This document shows positions 58,133-64,000 of a DNA stretch of 64,000 nt, in pieces. Position 1 is the first letter of the stretch. The number at the start of each line of letters is the position of its first letter. Position numbers and translations under genes: made by a program. The notes under the pieces were generated by a model. That model saw only the letters and a program-made list of their open reading frames with translations, had not been told where the DNA came from and did no database searches. Source of the DNA: Deltaproteobacteria bacterium (GTDB taxonomy: Bacteria > Myxococcota_A > UBA796 > UBA9615); assembly GCA_023954745.1 (NCBI GenBank), contig JAGSHC010000002.1, forward strand, positions 49,526-113,525. Direction: 5' to 3'.

Positions 58133-58195
58133 TCCGTGCGGGGTGCAGTACCCTGACAGGCCCGCCGCCCGGCGGTGCAGTACGGAGCCCAACCC

Positions 58196-59263
58196 ATGGC
58201 CCGGCGCGCTCGCGCTCATCTCGTCCGTCTCTTCCCCCCTGCTCCCCACGGCGGAGTGGTCCCTCATGCCTTCGAGGGCGCGAGGATGACGCTGGGAACT
58301 GCCGACGATTGCTCCATTCGTCTCGAGGGCACGGGCATCGCGCCCCACCACGCTCGCCTCGACCGGCTGCGTTCGGGAAGCACGCTGCGCGCGTTTCCCC
58401 TGGGCGAAGCACCGGTGTGGATCAACGGGCGCCGCGTCCCGAAGGGCGGGCAGGACCTGGAGGAGGGCGCAGTCCTCCGTCTGGGCGACGTGGTGCTGCT
58501 GCATCGGCAGTGGCTCGACGAGGAGGCGCAGTCCGCTGCGCTCCCCCCGCTGCCCGGCCCCGTGAACTCCTGCCACCCCACGGTGGTCCGAGGCCTGCTC
58601 CGACTTCAGGGCAAGCGCCACAGCGGCGGGACCTTCTGGCTCACCGGCGAAGAGGGCTGCGGGCGCAGCGTGGTCATCTATCACCTCCGCGCGCTGCTCG
58701 AGGAGAGCTCCGAGCGAGACTGGATCACCGGGGGCCCGAGCTTCGAGTCCGCCGCCGAGGCTCCACCGGACGCCGACCCGTCCCGCACGCTTGCGCTCCC
58801 GCCGCTCCGCAATCGCGGGGAGGACCTGCTGGTGCTCATGGCGTCGATTTGCGGCGGCGCCCTCCCCCACCTCTCGCCCCAGCTCGTCGAAGCGCTGCTG
58901 CTCTACGACTGGCCCGGCAACATCCGTGAGCTGCGCCTCTCCGTCGCTCGCTGTCACGACCCCCGATTCGGCGCCGAGGACATCGAGCGCTGGGATCTGC
59001 CCGACTTCCCGGACGTGCAGCGTCACTACGGCGAGCGCGTCGGGACCCACGACCCCATCACCCTTCAGGCTCCGAAGAGGGACCTGCCGGGAACCGAGCC
59101 CGAGATGAGGCGCCTGCTCGACGCGCACTGGTGGCGCATCCATCCGCTCGCGGCCGCGACGGGGCAGAGCCGAAGCGACGTGCTGGCCCACATCTTCAGC
59201 CTCGGGATTCGCGAACCCTGGTGGCGAGCAGACCCCGGCGCGAGCAACCTCTCGAGGTCGTAG
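58196..59263 (+). CDS. FHA protein with degenerate sigma54-activator-type AAA+ and HTH-like end
   Basis: 355 residues from ATG 58196 (GGAG eight bases upstream; GTG 58175 possible). An FHA domain lies at ~20-105 ('RMTLGTADDCSIRLEGTGIAPHHARL', 'APVWINGRRV'). Then a shortened AAA+ region has a P-loop-like 'GEEGCGRSV' without the lysine, 'ALPPLRNRGEDLLVLM' and 'LYDWPGNIRELRLSV', the motif of enhancer-binding proteins. The GAFTGA loop that contacts sigma54 is absent and the ATPase is ~100 residues too short. The C-terminus resembles a Fis-type helix pair. It is probably a phosphothreonine-reading regulator that cannot remodel sigma54. Confidence 0.8.
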   Translation: MARRARAHLVRLFPPAPHGGVVPHAFEGARMTLGTADDCSIRLEGTGIAPHHARLDRLRSGSTLRAFPLGEAPVWINGRRVPKGGQDLEEGAVLRLGDVVLLHRQWLDEEAQSAALPPLPGPVNSCHPTVVRGLLRLQGKRHSGGTFWLTGEEGCGRSVVIYHLRALLEESSERDWITGGPSFESAAEAPPDADPSRTLALPPLRNRGEDLLVLMASICGGALPHLSPQLVEALLLYDWPGNIRELRLSVARCHDPRFGAEDIERWDLPDFPDVQRHYGERVGTHDPITLQAPKRDLPGTEPEMRRLLDAHWWRIHPLAAATGQSRSDVLAHIFSLGIREPWWRADPGASNLSRS

Positions 59264-59293: not shown

Positions 59294-62143
59294 TCAGTTG
59301 GCCAGCGCGGTCTGTCCCGGATTCAGGGCGCCCCAGCTGCTGTTGTTCGCATCGGTCCAGTCGACTCGGCTGTTGGTGTCGGTCTCGTCGACGCGCCCGA
59401 GAGTGGTCCCGCTCGGGGTGGTGCCCGTCGCCGAGGCATCCCGCACCGCGTTGAGGCAGAAGTCCTCGTCGTAGAAGGACGGCGTCGCGCCGGCCGGCGT
59501 CGTCCATCCTCCTCGGTCGGAGATCCAGTCCGCCCGCGCCTCGGTCGAGTTGGCGGTGACGAACCCGGAACAGACGCTCGTGCCCGCGATCAGCACCGCG
59601 TCGATGAGGTCTCCCCCCAGCTCGGTCTTCAGCCAGATGGCGTTGTCGTGCGCGGTCACGTTCTCGCTCGCCGACGTCCAGAAGTCCCAGGCCCCGTCAT
59701 GGTTCTGCGGGTAGGACGACGCGGGGTACTCGTCCTTTGAGGTCGACTCGTTGCCCGAGCCATCCTCGTTGCAGTCCGCTCCGTCCAGGTGAAGGACGAT
59801 GAGGTCGTCGACGGTCACCTCGACCGCCGGGAAGGTGAAGAACTTGTAGGAGCCGCCGAACTGGGTCCCGCGACCTCGGATCTCCATCCCGCCCAAGGAC
59901 CCGGCCTCCACCGCGCGGAGCTCGATGCGGTTGCACTCCTGGCTTGCGCTCGCGCCCACGACCGTGGCCGTGAGCTCGTTGATGACGAGGTTCGCGAGGC
60001 CGAAGAAGCCCTCGAAGGAGCCAGACCGCCCTTCCTCGGGGATCTCCTGCCCCAAGGCATCGACGGCGGTGGCGGCGATGACGAGCTCGTAGGACGCGTT
60101 GGCTTCCTGCGCGCTCGTCGTGAGGGTCGCGAGGGGGCCTGCCACGACCACGTCGGTCACCGTGAGCCCCGCGATGGAGAACATCGAGGCGGTGAGGGCG
60201 GTGCTCCAGTCCCAGCTGAGCTCCACCGTCACGGTGGTGCTGTCGACGGCGATGATCTCGACGATGGAAGGGGGGGCGCCGTCGTTGTCGGCGGCGCAGG
60301 GGTCCTCACCACAGGGAGTGCTGGCGACCCCGGGGCCGCTGGGATCCAGGAACGCCGTCACGAGGTCGAACAGGCCTGACCACTGGAGCGCTCCGTGGGC
60401 CCCGGTCGTGTCAGGCGGGTTGTTGCCGGTCGGGGAGGGCCCGAGCTGCGGGTCGTACTGAAAGAGGATCGGGTCGCCCGGCCCCAGAGGGCCCGACTCC
60501 ACGGGGATACCCCAGGGTGCGGAGTGAGAGGGAGCCAGGAGCGTCAGGCCGCCCGCCCTCGCGAGGTTCTCGGTTGCGATGTTCCACACCGTGTCGTCAC
60601 CCATGTTCTCGACGTACAGGCGGGACCCGGCGATGCTCTCGGGGTAGTTGATTCCATCCACCGCGTCGGTGAAGAGCTGGAAGAGAGCGAACGCTCGCCG
60701 GCGACTCGTCGGTTCAGGGATCGCCTCCGCGAATGCCTCCAGCAGGTCGGCGACCTGGGCGGCTCGGGGGATGACGAAGCCCAGGGGACCTCCCCCCACC
60801 GTCATGACCGCAGCGTCGACGTCGACCCCTTCCTGGGCCAGGAGCGCGGTACCCATGACCGAGCCCACCGACACCCCGAGGTACGAGAGCGAGCTGTTGT
60901 CCACGAGGGCCTGGCCCTGAGCGCCCTGGAACACCTCGTCCTGGAACAGGGCGCCGTCCTCGATGACGTCGACCAGCACCCGCGTGTTCACCATCGCCTG
61001 CACGAGCCGGTTGGCGACCCCGATGAGTCGCTCGGGGTTCTGGTCGAGCGTCAGCAGGTCGTCCAGGTCGTTGAACTCGAGACCCCGCCAGGTGGTCGCG
61101 AGCACGATCATCCCGTTCCGCTCCGCAGCCACGACCGCCGGGTGCCGCCAGTTGGGGGTGTTGAGGTCGTAGGAGGGGTGCGCCGTGGCGCCGTGGCCGT
61201 AGAGGAGCACGGGCACCGACCCCGCCGGAGCGTCGGCTACGGAGCTCGGGATGATCGCGAAGACGTCGATGTCGGTCGTGCCCGTCTGGCTGATCGTCCC
61301 GTCCGGGGCGACGTCGAGGAACATGTCGTCGCGCAGGAAGTCCTGGACCGTCAGCTTCGCGCGGGCGTAGCGCCATGTCTCGTTGTGCAGGGCGTTGCTC
61401 TCACCCAGGTCCCGCACGTCGTAGAAGTCCCATTCTGTGGGCAAGGTCCGCTGGGCGAGGCCCGACTCCAGCTGCGCGTTCCCCATGTCCACGGGGAAGT
61501 CCCAGGCCAACGCGACCCCATCGGAGGAGACCCCTGCCCCGGCCAGGTCCTCCATGAGCGCTCGATAGTGGAGGGCGGCGCCGCCGTAGTCCGCCGGCGG
61601 CGTGCCTGCCACGAGGGCCTCGAACCGCTCGGGGCGGGGGAGCGCGTCCGTCGTCACCACCACTGCAGCCCGCCCAGGGGCTGTCAGCGGCCGCACGGGC
61701 TGGATCAGCAAGGCAGGGCTCCGGCCTGGGACCACGTTCTCGTCGAGCTCCGCGATGACGGGCACCCGGTCGCCGGTGACGAGGTCGACCATGAAGACCG
61801 CGTCGTCGCTCGCGTCCCCGTCCGAGCCGTCGGGCAGACCGTCGCCGGAGAGGCCTTCAATGGTGGCGACGATGGGCTGGTTGCGAGAGAACCCCTGCCG
61901 CCAGGCGATGGCCTCGGTAGGGAGTCCACCGAACCACGCCGGGTCGAGGTCCAGCCGGCCGTCCTCAGCGCCCAGGAACGCGTTGGGGAATGGGTCCTCG
62001 GGCCCCACACCGAAGAGCCCGCCCGACACGTCCGTGCCGAAGTCGACGGGGGCTGGGGTCGGCTCCGCCGGCTCGTCCGGCTCACCGGAGGGGCAAGCGG
62101 CGAGGCCGCAGCAGAGAGTCAGGGCGAGGATGATGCGGGTCAT
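59294..62143 (-). CDS. Large lipoprotein with esterase-like and lamin-tail-like domains
   Basis: 949 residues, lipobox LAAC. Residues ~35-600 contain an alpha/beta hydrolase-like core: 'VPVLLYGHGATAHPSYD', 'IVLATTWRGLEFND' and a nucleophile elbow 'YLGVSVGSVMGT' (Ser in G-x-S-x-G), with a His candidate in 'DTTGAHGALQW'. A fibronectin-like segment follows (~620-720), then a lamin-tail-like domain (~725-945: 'LVINELTATVVG', 'NRIELRAVEAGSL', 'DDLIVLHLDG'). It is probably a surface esterase or lipase attached by a lipid. It is transcribed alone, after a ~110-base gap from the M56 gene. Confidence 0.78.
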   Translation of the reverse strand: MTRIILALTLCCGLAACPSGEPDEPAEPTPAPVDFGTDVSGGLFGVGPEDPFPNAFLGAEDGRLDLDPAWFGGLPTEAIAWRQGFSRNQPIVATIEGLSGDGLPDGSDGDASDDAVFMVDLVTGDRVPVIAELDENVVPGRSPALLIQPVRPLTAPGRAAVVVTTDALPRPERFEALVAGTPPADYGGAALHYRALMEDLAGAGVSSDGVALAWDFPVDMGNAQLESGLAQRTLPTEWDFYDVRDLGESNALHNETWRYARAKLTVQDFLRDDMFLDVAPDGTISQTGTTDIDVFAIIPSSVADAPAGSVPVLLYGHGATAHPSYDLNTPNWRHPAVVAAERNGMIVLATTWRGLEFNDLDDLLTLDQNPERLIGVANRLVQAMVNTRVLVDVIEDGALFQDEVFQGAQGQALVDNSSLSYLGVSVGSVMGTALLAQEGVDVDAAVMTVGGGPLGFVIPRAAQVADLLEAFAEAIPEPTSRRRAFALFQLFTDAVDGINYPESIAGSRLYVENMGDDTVWNIATENLARAGGLTLLAPSHSAPWGIPVESGPLGPGDPILFQYDPQLGPSPTGNNPPDTTGAHGALQWSGLFDLVTAFLDPSGPGVASTPCGEDPCAADNDGAPPSIVEIIAVDSTTVTVELSWDWSTALTASMFSIAGLTVTDVVVAGPLATLTTSAQEANASYELVIAATAVDALGQEIPEEGRSGSFEGFFGLANLVINELTATVVGASASQECNRIELRAVEAGSLGGMEIRGRGTQFGGSYKFFTFPAVEVTVDDLIVLHLDGADCNEDGSGNESTSKDEYPASSYPQNHDGAWDFWTSASENVTAHDNAIWLKTELGGDLIDAVLIAGTSVCSGFVTANSTEARADWISDRGGWTTPAGATPSFYDEDFCLNAVRDASATGTTPSGTTLGRVDETDTNSRVDWTDANNSSWGALNPGQTALAN

Positions 62144-62256: not shown

Positions 62257-63789
62257 CTACTGTTCGCCGGGGGTGCTCTCGGCGTCGAGAAGCGACGGGT
62301 CTTCGAGGAGCAGGACCGAGGTCATCACCATCGGGACGTAGTGGTTCAGGGCTCCGCGCTCGGAGAGGGTGAGCACGTCACGGGTGCCTTCGGTCTCGAT
62401 GGCGGTGCGCACGGCGCGCGCTCCCTGGTTGTAGCCGGCGAGGGCCAGGCCCCAGTCGCCAAACTCCGCGTAGAGGTCGCTGAGCAGACGCATCGCGGCG
62501 TCGGTCTCCTTGACCGGATCGAGGCGCTCGTCCGTGGTGTCGTCCACTTGCAGGCCGTAGCGCCGGGCGGTGGCAGGGATGAACATCCAAAGCCCCTTGC
62601 CAGGCACTCCTGGGGCGGCAGAGAGGCCCTCCTTGTACTCACCCAGGTTCGCGTAGCCCGACTCGACGAGGGGAACCGCGGCCAGCTGCGGCGGCAGGTC
62701 GTAGCGGGCGAGGGCCCCATCCACGAGCTCCGCCCACTCGGCACGCTTGTCGAGGCCCCCCGCGAAGAACGCGGCGGTCTTGGGGCGATTCACGATGCGG
62801 TCGAGGGCGCCCGCGATGGCCGCGTGGTCCCGCACGACGAATGTCTCGTCCGATGCCGCGGCCGAGACCGCAACCCGCTGCTCTGCGTCGACGGTGCGGG
62901 TCTCCACGAGTCCCGAAGCAGCCCACGCCGTCCCGAAGAGGGTGAGGGAGAGCCCGAGGGCGAAGGGAACAGCGAGGAGGCGGCGGGGAGCGGGAGGTGA
63001 GGTCAGCATCTGGATTCTCCGACGGAGCAGCGTGGGGTGGTGAAGGCCGGCGGCCATGGGGAGCGGGGGGGACGCGGCGGCGCGCAAGAGGCAGCCGCCG
63101 TATTCACGGGCGGAGACGTTGGTTCGGGACACCACCGCCTCGTCACAGGCGAGCTCCTCCAGCTCGGCAATCCGTCGGGCGAGGAGATGGGCGAATGGGT
63201 TCCAGAAACAGGTGGTGCGCAGGGCGAGGAGGAACCAGGCGATGCGGGGGTCTCCGTGGCGGTGGTGCTGGAGTTCGTGGGCGAGAGCGAGCCGGTGGTC
63301 TCGGTGTCGAGTGAGAAGCCCGCGCTCGAGCACGATGTAGCGCCGGCCGGGGCGCCAGGCGGCGAAAGACCGGTCACCGAGGCGAAGCTCGAGGCGTCCG
63401 ATGCGTCGGAGGAGGGTGGTGTCCCGCAGCGCGCGGCGCAGGGTCAGGACACACAGGGCGGCCCAGACGGCAGCGAGCGAGAGGAAGGCCGCGAGGGCGA
63501 CGAGCGCGGCGGTGCCGGAGCCGGAAGGCAGGACGAGGGCGGGGGTGTCGGCCGCGAGGCGAAGGGCGACGGCACCGCTGGCGAGGGTCTCCGAGAACAC
63601 CTGGGGCTCCGGGCGCCAGGCCGGCGATTCCGGGACCAGGGTGGCGGCGAGGGGGGCGACGATGGCGGCAGCGAGACCAGCGCGAACCACGGTGAGGGCC
63701 GCTCGACGCGACATGGGAATACGCAGAAGAGCCAACGCCCCGATCCACAGCACGGCCAACAGCAACTGCACGCTGAGGTAGGCGCTCAC
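62257..63789 (-). CDS. M56 (BlaR1-type) membrane peptidase fused to a lytic transglycosylase domain
   Basis: 510 residues from GTG 63789, overlapping the BlaI-like stop by four bases (GTGA). Three to four membrane helices and a cytoplasmic zinc-peptidase segment with 'LAHELQHH' (HExxH, ~171-175) and 'EELACDEAVV' match BlaR1/MecR1 peptidases. After the last helix (~275-295) the sensor domain is not a penicillin-binding fold but a lytic-transglycosylase-like one ('LAAVPLVESGYANLGEYKEGLSAAPGVPGKGLWMFIPATARRYGL', 'LAGYNQGA'), with Glu in 'VESGY' as the likely catalytic acid. It may sense or process muropeptides. Confidence 0.9.
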   Translation of the reverse strand: MSAYLSVQLLLAVLWIGALALLRIPMSRRAALTVVRAGLAAAIVAPLAATLVPESPAWRPEPQVFSETLASGAVALRLAADTPALVLPSGSGTAALVALAAFLSLAAVWAALCVLTLRRALRDTTLLRRIGRLELRLGDRSFAAWRPGRRYIVLERGLLTRHRDHRLALAHELQHHRHGDPRIAWFLLALRTTCFWNPFAHLLARRIAELEELACDEAVVSRTNVSAREYGGCLLRAAASPPLPMAAGLHHPTLLRRRIQMLTSPPAPRRLLAVPFALGLSLTLFGTAWAASGLVETRTVDAEQRVAVSAAASDETFVVRDHAAIAGALDRIVNRPKTAAFFAGGLDKRAEWAELVDGALARYDLPPQLAAVPLVESGYANLGEYKEGLSAAPGVPGKGLWMFIPATARRYGLQVDDTTDERLDPVKETDAAMRLLSDLYAEFGDWGLALAGYNQGARAVRTAIETEGTRDVLTLSERGALNHYVPMVMTSVLLLEDPSLLDAESTPGEQ

Positions 63790-64000
63790 TGCTCTCTCCC
63801 GAGCTTGTCGTCCAGCAGAGACTGGAGCTCGGCGAGCTCATCGGCCGCTACAGGTTCGCTGTCGATGAGCTGCCGCAGCAGCGCGACGCGGTCTCCGCCG
63901 AACAGCGCACCCAGCATGTGCCGCACCGAGCGCGCTTCGTAGCGGGGCTTCTCCTCCGCCGGGACGTAGACGTGGGAGCGCCCCTCCTTGCGGGTGGTGA
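63786..64000 (-). CDS. BlaI/MecI-family repressor (C-terminal part)
   Basis: The frame enters from the right edge and ends at TGA 63788-63786. The ~71 visible residues include 'TRKEGRSHVYVPAEEKPRYEARS' style winged-helix wing and the C-terminal dimer region 'HMLGALFGGDRVALLRQLIDSE', typical of BlaI/MecI/CopY repressors. The HTH itself is outside the window. It is translationally coupled to the M56 peptidase, as in bla/mec operons, so peptidase-triggered cleavage of this repressor is the expected circuit. Confidence 0.88.
   Translation of the reverse strand, partial: TTRKEGRSHVYVPAEEKPRYEARSVRHMLGALFGGDRVALLRQLIDSEPVAADELAELQSLLDDKLGREQ

Follow-up and report, generated by a model that had tools for sequence, protein, structure and literature searches.

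The closest described counterparts of the locus reported here are the BlaR1/MecR1-BlaI/MecI systems of Staphylococcus and Bacillus licheniformis, in which an M56 gluzincin of the membrane carries a penicillin-binding domain as its C-terminal extracytoplasmic sensor and works with a BlaI-type repressor that has a scissile Asn-Phe bond. By cryo-EM, the catalytic or stabilising residues of BlaR1 are H201, H205, D210, E242, D246 and Y261, its loop EL1 (residues 56-96) sits in the groove of the sensor until the drug expels it, and the receptor is shed by signal peptidase at Gly331 (PMC9834060). BlaI/MecI/CopY repressors elsewhere recognise TACA/TGTA boxes, often in pairs (PMC7253601). The other point of comparison is MltD of Pseudomonas aeruginosa, a family 1 lytic transglycosylase (LT); the consensus of this family reads ES-GLMQ-AYNAG (PMC8517470), and its Ser and GLMQ motif have been described as essential to the architecture of the active site (PMC550655). 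The literature searches made turned up no M56-transglycosylase fusion.

An M56 protease and a transglycosylase domain in one protein

The last gene of the window (the whole 64,000-nucleotide stretch of DNA that was analysed) lies at 62257-63789 on the minus strand, as do all features below unless a sign is given, and is an open reading frame of 510 aa with a GTG start. Its product matches Peptidase_M56 (PF05569) over residues 151-262 (63004-63339; 69.4 bits, E = 4e-19, cut-off 31) and SLT (PF01464) over residues 362-471 (62377-62706; 66.8 bits, E = 2e-18, cut-off 21.3), and it is a member of both families. Two NCBIfam equivalog models aligned at the expected positions with scores below their cut-offs, blaR1_generic at 21.7 bits (cut-off 400) and MltD (NF008050) at 53.5 bits (cut-off 508). 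A Pfam search of the fusion protein up to E = 1 returned no penicillin-binding/transpeptidase family (SXXK/KTG-type sensor); lacking that sensor, the protein is not a BlaR1. The first-pass annotation had described a BlaR1-type M56 peptidase in which an SLT-like domain with a catalytic Glu replaces the penicillin-binding sensor, and both halves of this description hold; it had also named beforehand two observations that would speak against it, a penicillin-binding signature in the C-domain and loss of the M56 motif, and neither was made.

Of the 71 genomes of the class, 13 yielded full-length M56-SLT fusions in protein and profile searches, and these 13 fall in five families (f1, f3, f4, f6 and f7 in our working numbering). 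A sample of about 308 further genomes from the phylum yielded none; a pattern-based scan for relatives was of limited sensitivity and missed ten of them, so absence elsewhere is not proven. The 12 relatives share 37-58% identity with the window protein, and both Pfam families are matched above cut-off in all 13 fusions. An assembly artefact or frameshift as the source of the fusion was ruled out by the 12 orthologues in further genomes. A search for plasmid-borne relatives gave separate M56 or SLT matches only, none covering 80%.

The protease half retains all catalytic residues of the BlaR1/MecR1 gluzincins. The HELQH zinc/catalytic motif occupies residues 171-175 (63265-63279), with H-E-x-x-H invariant in 13/13 rows, and the gluzincin motif E212xxxD216 lies at 63142-63156; H171, E172, H175, D180, E212, D216 and Y230 are all invariant in the alignment of the 13 fusions. 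Counted from the first His, H175, D180, E212, D216 and Y230 stand at +4, +9, +41, +45 and +59, a spacing equal to that of H201/H205/D210/E242/D246 in BlaR1 (E212 follows H171 by 41 residues, as E242 follows H201), with Y230 within one residue of Y261.

Hydropathy, charge and the helices of an AlphaFold2 model (mean pLDDT 76.8, pTM 0.50) agree with a four-TM N-out/C-out topology, the layout of BlaR1/MecR1. Hydropathy and model together place TM1 at residues 4-22 (63724-63780; helix 2-23 in the model), TM2 at 34-52 (63634-63690), TM3 at 96-114 (63448-63504) and a signal-peptide-like TM4 at 271-289 (62923-62979), while the predicted cytosolic loop 119-265 is basic (25 K/R vs 13 D/E) and EL1 and the C-terminus are acidic. 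EL1, the predicted extracellular loop between TM2 and TM3 (residues 53-92; 63514-63633), corresponds to the BlaR1 loop in position and equals it in length, and it carries a P-x-x-QV-[WYF] motif in most orthologues; the model leaves it unresolved (pLDDT below 50), so that EL1 docking and a coupling of EL1 to the groove would follow by analogy with BlaR1. TM4 is followed by [A/G]-x-A in 13/13 rows, with A290 nearly invariant, and in the window protein the A-W-A at residues 288-290 (62920-62928), aligned by eye, is a possible signal-peptidase site, matching the signal-peptidase-like site after TM4 in BlaR1/MecR1. An [AS]-[GAP]-[LFMA] stretch in the loop that follows the helix of Y230 could be an autocleavage site, judging by the preference at the BlaI cut.

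A BlaI partner and its predicted operator

Immediately upstream of the fusion gene, and overlapping it by 4 nt (GTGA), which couples both genes, lies blaI. The window holds the 3' part only (63786-64000, the last ~70 codons): the contig ends at window base 64000 (contig position 113525), so the N-terminus of BlaI and the promoter of this genome are missing. The fragment scores 38.8 bits against Penicillinase_R (PF03965; cut-off 22.6), full-length BlaI proteins of orthologues score 104 and 116 bits, and a BlaI gene stands immediately upstream on the same strand in 12/12 relatives, which confirms the partner assigned at first reading. Neighbours other than BlaI differ in every genome and no conserved target gene adjoins the operon; because the neighbouring genes are not conserved, the BlaI-fusion pair is a stand-alone unit. 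The gene neighbourhoods show no linked resistance gene and no LT besides the fusion itself, and the operon, unlike BlaR1/MecR1 systems, has no linked beta-lactamase or PBP.

Downstream of the fusion, 59294-62143 encodes a lipoprotein-like secreted protein of 949 aa with a GxSxG-like stretch (GVSVGS); neither Pfam nor NCBIfam matched this protein at E<=1, and its gene is not conserved beside the fusion in other genomes. Further along, 58175-59263 (+) encodes an FHA domain and, after it, what appears to be a degenerate AAA+ segment of the sigma-54-activator type, in which the lid domain matches and the core is weak. The same genome has two further BlaI/M56 pairs (L055:6890-9057 and L056:8107-9443, on contigs C331 and C328), in whose M56 proteins (575 and 310 aa) Pfam recognised no C-terminal sensor.

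Mapping of the BlaI operator, a check suggested with the original annotation, was carried out in the promoters of the relatives, the window's own promoter lying beyond the contig. The predicted operator, a 16-bp WACKAA-N4-TTMGTW palindrome, is present upstream of blaI in 12/12 relatives with an intact promoter, and 11 of these promoters carry two palindromes, 22-23 bp centre to centre, around the -35 box. In these 11, a -35-like hexamer (TTGAC-) begins at offset 14 of the first palindrome, and a -10-like hexamer follows 16-18 bp further; since the operator pair encloses both the -35 box and the promoter spacer, binding of repressor and binding of polymerase should be mutually exclusive. BlaR1/MecR1 systems also have a pair of operators at their promoter, and the CopY/BlaI/MecI-type tandem operators of the cop operon likewise have two palindromes per promoter, one at -35 and one proximal (PMC7253601). 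The predicted sites differ from BlaI/MecI operators in having WACKAA half-sites where those are TACA/TGTA-centred, and the fusion operon differs from cop both in this half-site and in having no metal control.

The exact pattern occurred 23 times in 13 whole genomes, vs 5 hits in all for reversed-pattern controls, and nearly all exact sites precede blaI genes, either those of the fusion operons or those of other BlaI/M56 pairs in two genomes (G030 and G002), so that the WACKAA motif appears to serve BlaI-type repressors in general as an operator within the lineage. A wider regulon was rejected: outside the fusion operons, zero-mismatch sites lie before BlaI/M56 pairs (G030:C1, G002:C716), in an rne-like reading frame (G301:C288) and near a gene for a regulator (G267:C167). 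Ten long loci (about 183 kb), scanned with up to two mismatches allowed, contained almost no further site, and one-mismatch hits in four f6 genomes were at or near the control level; the window's own genome gave 14 one-mismatch sites vs 3 in the control, most of them in coding sequence. Because the scans of the relatives' genomes revealed almost no sites except before blaI, BlaI would chiefly control its own operon. The proposal that the receptor induces the target of the repressor is hereby refined: the predicted operator was mapped, and the sole confident target is the blaI-receptor operon, so the receptor/transglycosylase itself is most likely what is induced.

Two further sites were recorded. 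In the window's own genome, a one-mismatch site (TACTAACCGGTCAGTA; L131:1545, G000:C374:8644) is located 18 bp ahead of the gene for a hemolysin-III-like membrane protein, which may be an additional target. The other belongs to G030, where two operator palindromes separated by 1 bp lie ahead of a BlaI/M56 pair (L103:5607-7634; M56 protein of 535 aa); these palindromes stand where a divergent aconitase-like gene begins, and that gene may be a target in G030.

The bond that is cut in MecI, Asn101-Phe102, aligns to Gln-Leu in the window BlaI and to x-Leu in 12/12 relatives, so that in the alignment to MecI the P1' position is Leu in every BlaI compared, unlike the Asn-Phe of MecI and BlaI.

The transglycosylase half

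The SLT domain is MltD-like and GH23-type, and it occupies the place that a penicillin-binding domain holds in BlaR1. Among solved proteins, P. aeruginosa MltD is the closest in sequence (8rhe, E = 3e-11). Structure prediction, proposed earlier for the C-domain, led to the same protein: a Foldseek search with the AlphaFold2 model returned MltD (8rhf, E = 3.9e-6), and with the whole model BlaR1 (8ext, E = 2.5e-4; also 8exp, 8exs and 8exq). The domain shares with MltD the SLT fold, the ES catalytic pair (Glu376-Ser377 in VPLVESGY, 62659-62664, invariant in 13/13 fusions) and the YN motif (Y453-N454 invariant in 13/13, YNxG invariant or nearly so). It differs in being joined to a membrane protease, in that no LysM was found, in a longer loop between ES and GLW, and in the change of GLWQ to GLWM.

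By alignment, Met402 (62584-62586) takes the position of the Gln in the GLMQ/GLWQ motif of free LTs. Gln is replaced by Met in 12/13 fusions, that of locus L048 being the exception, and is kept in 30/30 rows of free transglycosylases compared, which represent 29 loci since two rows cover one gene. Met402 may alter the SLT active site, and the change would fit either weaker catalysis or a different specificity. In the SLT tree, all fusions and three free LTs (L052-L054) form one clade with support of 100/100; the substitution may therefore have happened only once, and the 12 cases do not count as independent evidence. The SLT domains of 12 fusions make up one supported clade (96/87), and that of the thirteenth, L048, groups with the free LT L054 (90/87, fork not starred), so the fusion may have arisen once, with losses, or twice. 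The three free proteins (L052:16878-17609, L053:13218-13949 and L054:2802-3431) are exported SLT proteins with no BlaI/M56 gene nearby, and they are either ancestors of the fused domains or escaped sensor domains. An EL1-like motif considered in L052 and L053, as part of an EL1-SLT unit, was discarded, its PSSM score being not above random (P about 0.2).

A proposed self-regulated receptor circuit and its alternatives

The domains, motifs, gene pairing, operator/promoter architecture and the lack of other strong operators in the relatives can be read directly from the sequences. The window protein very probably works like BlaR1, and it is best read as a transmembrane protease receptor resembling BlaR1, with a sensor derived from an enzyme of wall turnover. 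We consider it likely, with some reserve, that the two genes form a self-regulated receptor circuit of the BlaI/BlaR1 kind. In such a circuit, BlaI dimers would bind the two 16-bp palindromes around the -35 box and spacer of the blaI promoter and keep the operon off, and the fusion protein would cross the inner membrane by four TM helices, its M56 zinc protease in the cytosol and its SLT domain in the periplasm. Occupation of the SLT groove by a ligand, the likeliest being glycan ends or turnover products of peptidoglycan, would shift the EL1-TM3 coupling, as in BlaR1, so that a signal, presumably running in this direction, would reach the M56 site. The protease would then cut BlaI at the predicted Gln-Leu site, in the place of Asn101-Phe102 of MecI/BlaI, and the operon would be switched on. 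Repression at the start of this chain and induction at its end have strong backing in the sequences. The product that matters under this regulation would be the membrane-bound or shed transglycosylase/receptor itself; since the operon is the sole confident target, the fusion protein would be both receptor and regulated product. It is plausible that the SLT domain reads peptidoglycan or muropeptides, and the receptor probably reads the state of the wall, or drugs blocking wall-cutting enzymes, and induces its own gene. More tentatively, and with less confidence than the circuit itself, we suggest a class-restricted receptor family whose LT-derived groove senses peptidoglycan or an LT inhibitor of the bulgecin type and in which catalysis has been partly traded for signalling by the change of Gln to Met; the relation of such a sensor to transglycosylases would mirror that of the BlaR1 sensor to penicillin-binding enzymes.

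That the fusion protein is itself the regulated product keeps alive another explanation, in which the SLT domain is mainly an output, a membrane-tethered or signal-peptidase-released transglycosylase whose production the attached protease and BlaI would adjust, giving a homeostatic feedback on wall cutting. The invariant Glu-Ser and Tyr-Asn, the operon as sole confident target, the signal-peptide-like TM4 ending in [A/G]-x-A and the existence of related free LTs without M56 (L052-L054) all agree with it. Against it, the Gln-to-Met change in 12/13 fusions suggests altered catalysis, a separate MltD-like LT in every listed fusion genome outside f1 would make a further LT redundant, and BlaR1 has a signal-peptidase site too, yet its sensor is not an output (PMC9834060). 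We regard this explanation as unlikely.

Less probable still is a drug sensor by target mimicry, an LT-like decoy for natural LT inhibitors such as bulgecin, comparable to the PBP-like decoy for PBP inhibitors in BlaR1. Its receptor logic would be the same as that of BlaR1, and the nearest solved structures of the SLT domain (8rhe, 8rhf and 8rhi) are of MltD with bulgecin A bound; however, no resistance gene and, apart from the fusion, no LT is linked to the operon, there is no sign that these organisms encounter LT inhibitors, and Met402 may disturb the inhibitor site. Ordinary domain accretion, with an M56-BlaI module that senses through its membrane part and an SLT domain that merely anchors the protein to the wall, finds a parallel in the pairs of the same genome without a recognised sensor (L055, L056) and is the most improbable of all, given SLT active-site residues that are invariant over 37-58% identity, beyond an anchor's needs, in a domain that takes the exact topological place of the BlaR1 sensor.

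The reading of wall state by Gram-negative-type cells is known mainly via muropeptides that enter the cytosol. The BlaR1-like receptor favoured here, if true, would provide a direct periplasmic read-out of the wall in which repressor, operator and cleavage event are all defined. It would also indicate that sensors from other wall enzymes can be fitted to the BlaR1 chassis, and it would hint at receptors for transglycosylase-inhibiting antibiotics.
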